Program-made: the position numbers and the translations under genes
Source: an uncultured Fibrobacter sp.
GTDB lineage: Bacteria; Fibrobacterota; Fibrobacteria; Fibrobacterales; Fibrobacteraceae
Direction: 5' to 3'
DNA length: 64,000 nucleotides
Assembly: GCA_946183925.1 (NCBI GenBank)
Contig: CAMHDS010000001.1
Location: forward strand, 1 to 64,000
Shown here: in pieces, positions 196-61,013 of the stretch
Position numbering within the stretch: the stretch's first letter is position 1
Layout of the letters: every line of letters starts with the position of its first letter
The notes under the pieces: generated by a model
Databases searched by the model: none
What the model saw: only the letters and a program-made list of their open reading frames with translations
What the model was told of the DNA's origin: nothing

Positions 196-286
196 GTGAG
201 CCGTAGGCGACTCGTATTAACGAGTCGTCGAAGGCGAGAGCGAGCGCCAACCGGAGAAATCTAACCTGAATCTAGCGCGAGCGGTC
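196..286 (-). repeat. Two-hairpin repeat unit (reverse orientation)
   Basis: Reverse complement GACCGCTCGCGCTAGA...TTTCTCCGGTTGGCGCTCGCTCTCGC...CGACTCG-TTAATA-CGAGTCG...GGCTCAC aligns with units downstream of nth and of the Ala-rich gene. Confidence 0.75.
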
Positions 287-51586: not shown

Positions 51587-52242
51587 TGGCCAGGGTAAAG
51601 CCGGACAAAATCAAATTTATCGGGGAAAAGCTGGACGAACTTTTCCCGAACCCGCCCATTCCCCTGGATTACAAAAGCCCCTACACGCTGCTGGTGGCGG
51701 TGGTGCTCAGCGCCCAGTGCACCGACGTACGGGTAAACCAGGTGACCAAGGTTCTTTTCAAGGAAGCCTCTACTCCTGCCGCCATGGTCAAGCTGGGCGT
51801 GAAACGCATCGCCGAAATCATCAAGCCCTGCGGATTTTTCAACACCAAGAGCGTGAACATTTTCAACCTGTCCAAGACCCTGGTAGAAAAACACAAGGGT
51901 AAAGTCCCCTGCTCCTTCGAAGAACTGGAAGCCCTGCCTGGCGTAGGCCACAAGACTGCCAGCGTGGTCATGAGCCACGCCTACAAGATTCCCGCATTCC
52001 CGGTGGATACACATATCCACCGTCTGGCAGAGCGATGGGGCCTAAGTGACGGTAGCTCTGTGGAGCAAACCGAAAAAGACCTGAAGAAAATCTTTCCCGA
52101 AAACGAATGGGAAAAGCGCCACCTGCAGATTATCTACTACGGACGCACCTATTGCAAGGCCAGGGGTCACAAGGTCGAAGACTGTCCCATTTGCAGCATG
52201 ATGACCGTTCGCGCTAAAGCCAGGAACAAATTCTCTGGTTAG
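51586..52242 (+). CDS. nth: Endonuclease III; last ~13 codons coincide with a repeat unit
   Basis: VVLSAQCTDVRVN; LEALPGVGHKTASVVMSHAY; FPVDTHIHRLAERWG; ends CKARGHKVEDCPICSMMTVRAKARNKFSG*. Confidence 0.93.
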   Translation: MARVKPDKIKFIGEKLDELFPNPPIPLDYKSPYTLLVAVVLSAQCTDVRVNQVTKVLFKEASTPAAMVKLGVKRIAEIIKPCGFFNTKSVNIFNLSKTLVEKHKGKVPCSFEELEALPGVGHKTASVVMSHAYKIPAFPVDTHIHRLAERWGLSDGSSVEQTEKDLKKIFPENEWEKRHLQIIYYGRTYCKARGHKVEDCPICSMMTVRAKARNKFSG

Positions 52243-52293
52243 CGCTCACTCTCGCAACCACCCCTGTTTAATAACAGGGGCTTTGTTGCTCAC
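52201..52293 (+). repeat. Two-hairpin repeat unit 1 (overlaps nth 3' end)
   Basis: ATGACCGTTCGCGCTAAAGCC...TTCTCTGGTTAGCGCTCACTCTCGCAACCaCCCCTGTTTAATAACAGGGGCTTTGTTGCTCAC. Confidence 0.9.
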
Positions 52294-52295
52294 AT

Positions 52296-52387
52296 ATGAC
52301 CGTTCGCGCTAAAACCAAGAGCAACTTCTCCGGCTAGCGCTCACTCTCGCAACCACGCCCCGTTAATACGAGGCGCTTGTTGCTCAC
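52296..52387 (+). repeat. Two-hairpin repeat unit 2 (tandem, 95-bp period)
   Basis: ATGACCGTTCGCGCTAAAACC...TTCTCCGGCTAGCGCTCACTCTCGCAACCACGCCCCGTTAATACGAGGCGCTTGTTGCTCAC. Confidence 0.9.
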
Positions 52388-59659: not shown

Positions 59660-59747
59660 GTGAGCCACAAGCGACTCGTATTGACGAGGCGTGGTGGCGA
59701 GAGTGAGGCGATGCCGGAGGTACACCCCCGAGATTGAGCCGAACGGT
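59660..59747 (-). repeat. Two-hairpin repeat unit (reverse orientation)
   Basis: GTGAGCCACAAGCGACTCGTATTGACGAGGCGTGGTGGCGAGAGTGAGGCGATGCCGGAGGT...GAACGGT; outer stem GCCAC/GTGGC. Confidence 0.78.
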
Positions 59748-59753
59748 AATTAA

Positions 59754-59844
59754 AGGGGAAAGCCTTCCCCTCGCTCCATAATAGCCGACTTGAGCCGTCT
59801 ATTATTTCGCTACCCTTTCTAGCGGGCTTCAATCGCCAGCCCGC
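59754..59844 (-). other. Three consecutive hairpins (possible structured RNA/leader or dispersed repeat)
   Basis: AGGGGAA-agcc-TTCCCCT; ATAATAG-N14-CTATTAT; GCGGGCT-N9-AGCCCGC. Confidence 0.5.
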
Positions 59845-60054
59845 AACGCCTGGCTTACAGTTCATATATTACAAGATAAAATTTCCATGCCCAAATGGAG
59901 CGTTTTCGGCTCTTTTAGGCCGCAATAATCAGCAAAAAAGCGACAAAAGAATAAAAAAAGCGGACAAAATGATTTTTTTTGAAAAAAAGTGAGCAAATCG
60001 GACAAAGAAGTGCTATTTTTAGAGCGTTAAAGTTTAAACATAGAGAGGATTACT

Positions 60055-60726
60055 ATGAAGATTAAGAATCTGTTGCTGGCAACCATGCTGGCTTCTGCCG
60101 TTGCCTTTGCAGCTGATGCCGCAAAGCCTGCCGCCGCAGCCCCCGCTGCCGCTCCCGCAAAGACCGAAGCCGCCGCTCCCGCTGCTGCTCCTGCACCTGC
60201 TGCTGAAGCCGCTGCTCCCGCAGCTGCCGCTCCTGCTGAGGCCGCACCGGCACCCGCTGCCGAAGCTGCTCCTGCAGCCGCTCCCGCCGAAGCCGCCGCT
60301 CCTGCTACCGCTGCTGCTCCTGCTGATTCTGCTGCCCAACCTGCTACCGAAGCCGCCCCCGCAGCCGAAGCTGCTGCCGCCACGGCTGACTCTGCCGCAG
60401 CTCCCGCTGAAGCTGCCGCTGCTCCGGCCGACTCCGCTGCCGCCGCTCCTGCTGAAGCCGTAGCCACTGCCGACACCACCAAGGCAGACTCCGCCGAAGT
60501 GCTGGAAGCCAAGACCGAAGAAGCTCCGGTTGACAGCGCCGCCCTCGCCCAGTCCGAAGCTGACAAGAAGGCCGCCGAAGAAGCCGCCAAGGCCGAGGCC
60601 GCCGCTCAGCCCTCCGAGGCTACCGCTTCTGCCAAGTCTTCCATCATGGAAAACCCCTGGGAATTCCTGATTGTGTCCGCTGCCTTCGTGGCATCCGTGC
60701 TGGTGATTATCTTCACTGGGGACTGA
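60055..60726 (+). CDS. Exported Ala/Pro/Glu-rich low-complexity protein with C-terminal TM helix
   Basis: Signal MKIKNLLLATMLASAVAFAADA; (AAPAEAAP)n; SIMENPWEFLIVSAAFVASVLVIIFTGD. Confidence 0.75.
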   Translation: MKIKNLLLATMLASAVAFAADAAKPAAAAPAAAPAKTEAAAPAAAPAPAAEAAAPAAAAPAEAAPAPAAEAAPAAAPAEAAAPATAAAPADSAAQPATEAAPAAEAAAATADSAAAPAEAAAAPADSAAAAPAEAVATADTTKADSAEVLEAKTEEAPVDSAALAQSEADKKAAEEAAKAEAAAQPSEATASAKSSIMENPWEFLIVSAAFVASVLVIIFTGD

Positions 60727-60729
60727 TAC

Positions 60730-60822
60730 TGACCGCTCGTTCGTTTTTTGAGTGAAATTCCTCCGGAATCTCACTCGCTCTTGCGACCGCCCCTAGTTAA
60801 TACTAGGGGCTTTGTTGCTCAC
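60730..60822 (+). repeat. Two-hairpin repeat, tandem unit 1
   Basis: TGACCGCTCGTTCG...GAGTGAAATTCC-TCC-GGAATCTCACTC...GCCCCTAG-TTAATA-CTAGGGGCTTTGTTGCTCAC. Confidence 0.88.
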
Positions 60823-60828
60823 AAAAAA

Positions 60829-60919
60829 GACCGCAAAGTCTAAAAGCTATAAGAATAAGTTGCTATAGACTTTGCTCTCGCAACCGCCCCTAGTTAATAC
60901 TAGGGGCTTTGTTGCTCAC
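60829..60919 (+). repeat. Two-hairpin repeat, tandem unit 2
   Basis: GACC-GCAAAGTCTA...TAGACTTTGC-TCTCGCAACC-GCCCCTAG-TTAATA-CTAGGGGC-TTTGTTGCTCAC. Confidence 0.88.
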
Positions 60920-60925
60920 AAAAGC

Positions 60926-61013
60926 GAGCGTTCACGATAAATTTGAGAACAACGTTTCCGGACAGTGCACACTCTCACAAAAACACTGGTTTTCAACAAC
61001 CGGTGTTTTGTAT
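60926..61013 (+). repeat. Two-hairpin repeat, tandem unit 3 (diverged, terminator-like)
   Basis: GAGCGTTCACGATAAATTTGAGAACAACGTTTCCGGACAGTGCACACTCTCAC then CAAAAACACTGGTTttcaacAACCGGTGTTTTG. Confidence 0.7.

Follow-up and report, generated by a model that had tools for sequence, protein, structure and literature searches.

In bacteria other than those considered here, REP elements often lie 3' of genes and are thought to act as RNA elements (PMC3733652). In the REP superfamilies the hairpin foot is marked by a GTAG or CGTC tetranucleotide, and for most REPs head-to-tail arrays are absent or under-represented (PMC3733652). The bulge in the stem of E. coli REPs is required for cleavage (PMC8266576). 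We analysed a stretch of 64,000 nucleotides (the window; contig CAMHDS010000001.1, positions 1 to 64,000) from the 2.76-Mb draft genome of an uncultured Fibrobacter sp. The window holds six copies of a ~90-bp unit that is repeated throughout the genus, and a search with a right-half covariance model (R1) gave 36 copies in the source genome. We propose that the units are probably non-autonomous mobile DNA elements of REP/PATE-like logic, recognised by their structure and moved by a putative trans-acting enzyme, a reading based on sequence comparison.

Comparison of the genome copies and of ~160 distinct units with both halves gave the unit order as GACCG, a left hairpin, the linker CTCTCGC, a right hairpin with a TTAATA-type loop, and GCTCAC, which is often followed by RG. 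One arm of the left hairpin abuts the 3' side of GACCG and the other the 5' side of the linker; a CTCCGG-type motif is usual on its apical 3' side. The right hairpin has two stems, an outer one (GCNNC/GNNGC) and an inner one of 7-8 bp, with an unequal internal loop between them and the TTAATA-type loop at the apex. All stems and loops quoted in the initial annotation are present in the window, at 196-286 and at 52.2-52.4, 59.7 and 60.7-60.9 kb; the loop that it called fixed is kept as a type (TYAAKA) and is not strictly constant. The right hairpin of nth unit 2 contains one C-A mismatch. As DNA, the second 60.8-kb unit folds better than shuffled sequences (z -6.9), and the ilvD copy alone does no better than they do (z -0.36). 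Further dispersed intergenic sequences adjoin units at 59740-59860 and 340-480 of the window, for example GGGGAAGGCTTTCCCC and repeats of GTCATCC/GCGGGG type.

Table 1. Units and a probable unit remnant in the 64-kb window.
Feature	Position	Strand	Description
ilvD unit	196-286	-	3' of ilvD-like gene and facing it; right half 196-240, left half 241-286; exactly one unit
nth unit 1	52203-52293	+	At 3' end of nth, stop codon of nth within left half; right-hairpin stem CCCCTGTT/AACAGGGG
nth unit 2	52298-52387	+	In tandem with nth unit 1
Fumarase unit (name from the initial annotation)	59660-59748	-	Upstream of 60.0 kb; outer stem GCCAC/GTGGC
60.8-kb pair, unit 1	60731-60822	+	Follows the 60055-60726 frame, beginning 7 nt after the first base of its stop codon
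60.8-kb pair, unit 2	60829-60919	+	Left hairpin fully paired (CAAAGTCTA/TAGACTTTG)
Probable degenerate third left half	60925-60979	+	GCGAGCGTTCACG...CACACTCTCAC, after the 60.8-kb pair; spotted by eye

The family was found in 79 of 80 Fibrobacter genomes, at 1 to ~60 copies each, and in six genomes of sister genera from the same taxonomic family, five belonging to a second genus and one to a third. No unit was detected in the other genomes of the phylum that were searched, nor in phage and plasmid sequences, and in a scan of named-species genomes all of the matches listed belonged to Fibrobacter or Fibrobacterales. We found no earlier description in the literature searched; one may nevertheless exist.

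Both hairpins covary strongly. In an alignment of 77 distinct right halves (A2), 94.5% of stem cells were paired compared with 66.9% in shuffles, and the covariation score was 0.631, compared with 0.171 after shuffling and at most 0.099 with slid partners. Two-sided changes occurred in 222 stem cells of this alignment, and one-sided intermediates were very rare. We also carried out an R-scape-like test on both hairpins (77 sequences and 63 columns), placing the substitutions anew on a FastTree tree; because the implementation is our own and the tree was built from the same short alignment, the E-values are rough. Eight stem pairs (LEFT 1, 4, 5 and 6, OUTER 3, and INNER 3, 5 and 6) exceeded all 70,800 null values, and the 12 top-scoring pairs at a separation of at least 4 were all predicted stem pairs. 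The initial annotation had named a lack of significant covariation across a full copy set as the outcome that would refute its reading; this test was run and did not refute it.

Paired changes could also be produced by mutation without selection, through template switching at quasi-palindromes that copies one arm onto the other, or through gene conversion that swaps whole hairpins. The scarcity of one-sided intermediates favours such an origin, as does the observation that, at the same gene end, related copies with a common left half can differ by the entire right hairpin. Such whole-hairpin differences mean that the covariation is not all stepwise compensation, and module exchange contributes to the pattern. 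However, a T-C/C-T 2x2 mismatch is kept in 108 of 148 left stems while the flanking pairs covary. Arm correction should erase this mismatch, and likewise the unequal internal loop in the right hairpin, yet both persist in most copies; the loop and linkers are conserved as well. The retained mismatch fits recognition of one specific imperfect hairpin and speaks against simple arm-to-arm correction, and we consider an origin without selection to be quite improbable. A second alternative is that the units are 3'-untranslated RNA structures selected for mRNA-end stability or transcript separation, their spread being secondary. Their sense orientation right at stop codons would suit such a role, nth unit 2 folds better than shuffles as RNA (z -3.4), and the REPs of other bacteria provide a precedent (PMC3733652). 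Among 132 distinct right hairpins, the inner stem was Watson-Crick paired in 894 of 920 cells, with 5 G-T and 13 A-C, and the outer stem had 5 G-T and 8 A-C. RNA helices tolerate G-U, so selection on a sense RNA should leave G-U far above A-C. That G-T is no commoner than A-C fits DNA and not sense-strand RNA; the selection on structure put forward in the initial annotation, as RNA or as extruded DNA, is accordingly upheld for structure and narrowed to DNA. Moreover, no Rfam covariance model matched the unit, the unit is missing at the same gene in many species, and the copy number per genome varies widely. We regard the RNA explanation as unlikely, if the most serious of the competing accounts.

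Orthologous sites that are empty in relatives show that the family is mobile. Such sites were found for nth (G002, G028), site 2 (G022, G016), site 7 (G116, G022), site 8 (G022), site 9 (G043) and site 10 (G116, G016). The insertion at site 10 has altered the end of the encoded protein, which we interpret as LrgB-like; in the window, the nth frame terminates within a unit. Insertion junctions vary, and the empty-site comparisons revealed neither a fixed target duplication nor a clean target consensus. We rejected the idea that the left arm is a mere copy of the host target: it was suggested by site 4, where a 12-nt host sequence flanks the unit, but at site 10 and at nth the arm evidently came in together with the inserted unit. 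A preference for same-strand stop codons is seen in first units. Among those with enough upstream sequence, and taking frames of at least 120 codons, 63 of 121 have their GACCG 1-12 nt after the first base of such a stop codon; a mirror-image test of the opposite unit end gave 7 of 75 and thus no comparable bias. Reading frames run through 1 of 143 units in Fibrobacter, on the antisense strand. In a sister-genus genome (G160, locus L341) a unit lies antisense and in frame within a long open reading frame, to which it would add ~30 residues; the residues flanking it read like acyl-CoA dehydrogenase. A malate dehydrogenase-like gene end bears three tandem units in the second genus, and several Fibrobacter species have units there too. 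Units at this end (residues KNAEWVDAHT followed by the stop) have differing left arms, in Fibrobacter (L153, L156, L200, L084) and in the sister genus (L349, L356, L345). The site is either an insertion hotspot or the seat of an old unit with fast-changing stems.

Neighbouring units were arranged head-to-tail in 24 cases against 3, mostly with a period of 92-99 bp. For 32% of last units, a stretch matching the unit's own left half was found 3-6 nt downstream, compared with 21% when the left half of another unit was the query and 3-4% in a control stretch 150 nt downstream. At a stricter score of 10, the values for own and other left halves were 21% and 2%. The 2-4 host nucleotides that precede a unit often recur before the trailing partial left half. 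Two other sequences occur within units. A second dispersed element, CCACCTAAAGGTGGCCATGTNCAC...GTGNCCAAAGG, has its own variable hairpin, with N/N stem positions that appear to covary; it is present in 45 of 80 Fibrobacter genomes (for example on source-genome contigs C146, C42 and C44, and at L268, L275 and L286) and in many cases lies within a unit, flanked by CTC and TCGC. A third sequence of ~80 bp (AACCTAAGCCGAACACAGCAGAAACAAG...) is inserted in the TTAATA loop of the right hairpin at L134, L315 and L291, which suggests a mobile element that targets this loop.

The initial annotation had suggested looking for a transposase such as a REP-associated tyrosine transposase (RAYT), and the units could be REP elements moved by such an enzyme. 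In being high-copy extragenic palindromes, with one stem mismatched, they do recall E. coli REPs. However, only 28 of the 80 Fibrobacter genomes had Y1_Tnp, which is missing from several with the most copies (G033, G026 and G055, 52-59 copies each). None of the Y1 genes has unit ends around it; a single unrelated unit lies near 1 of 31 Fibrobacter IS200-like loci, and the ends of these loci differ from those of the units. Nor did the unit hairpins show a GTAG or CGTC tag, their conserved flanks being GACCG, CTCTCGC and GCTCAC, and the head-to-tail arrays are unlike most REPs. On the grounds of distribution and flanks we rejected RAYT/IS200 as a general driver, and we consider the proposed link very improbable. 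Two proteins that match Y1_Tnp weakly (311 and 322 aa) are encoded on very short contigs of the source-genome assembly (C161, C159) and may be its own or contaminants; C159 also carries several GAAGGTCCAGAGTGTGGACCTTC repeats. Folded sites just 3' of stop codons, in sense orientation and in head-to-tail arrays, also recall the attC-like sites on which an integron integrase acts. Yet none of the 80 genomes had an integron integrase above the curated cut-off, and the genes that precede the units are of housekeeping type, lie at syntenic loci and do not form cassette arrays; we rejected this candidate and give it almost no credence. A reverse-transcriptase driver was discarded because RVT_1 is missing from most genomes (found in 20 of 80, and in neither G033 nor G026).

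The mobile-element reading is drawn from the empty orthologous sites, the tree-aware covariation of both hairpins, the kept 2x2 mismatch together with the lack of a G-T excess, the preference for stop codons, the head-to-tail arrays with partial left halves, and the near-universal presence in the genus. Against it we count the failure of the Y1_Tnp, integron integrase and RVT_1 searches to reveal a linked transposase, the variable junctions, and the 40 of 148 left hairpins in which the 2x2 mismatch is missing. In our model, a trans-acting recombinase would act on a folded single strand of DNA, reading its shape, its loop and its linkers and not the stem sequence, and would insert the strand next to TAA-type sites, most often where genes end. 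Either multimer insertion, in a rolling-circle-like manner, or tandem duplication after insertion may underlie the arrays and the trailing partial left halves; an HUH-type activity of the putative enzyme is conceivable by analogy only. The precise 5' end, the head-to-tail copies and the variable partial copy at the 3' end are what point to possible rolling-circle multimers. More tentatively, the units may represent a new mobile system of the Fibrobacteraceae, composed of two-hairpin single-strand DNA elements whose putative enzyme targets gene ends at stop codons and possibly inserts such multimers, although we hold this fuller version to be doubtful. The family offers a clean natural case of structure-conserving covariation, apparently at the DNA level; its preference for stop codons is unusual, and Fibrobacter species are major degraders of fibre in the rumen. 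With copies from some 80 species in hand, the hunt for the enzyme and the question of RNA versus DNA become directly testable.

Like REP, BIME and REPIN sequences (PMC3733652, PMC3116915), the units are short, high-copy, mostly extragenic palindromic DNA with a stem mismatch, probably non-autonomous and often 3' of genes. They differ in having two unlike hairpins per ~90 bp and no visible tetranucleotide tag, and in being head-to-tail, strictly sense at stop codons and without a linked RAYT. With IS200/IS605 elements, which have subterminal hairpins, and their PATE-like derivatives (enzymes: PMC6006769), the units share a hairpin near each end, the absence of terminal inverted repeats and an apparent preference for TAA-type sites on the left. 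The single-strand DNA hairpins near the ends that mark IS200/IS605 elements also appear to be present in the units, judging from two covarying hairpins without an excess of wobble pairs. In contrast to that group, we found no Y1 transposase with matching ends, and the right junction varies and shows partial copies of the left half. MITEs of the DDE type are likewise small, dispersed and non-autonomous, but the units have no terminal inverted repeats (GACCG and GCTCAC are not inverted) and showed no constant target duplication. The palindromic elements of Rickettsia are repeats that can enter or extend reading frames. The units resemble them at nth, in the LrgB-like gene and in the one in-frame insertion at L341, but differ in sequence and host and lie mostly just 3' of stop codons. 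The family fails the tested features that define REPs, yet it works like REP or PATE elements.
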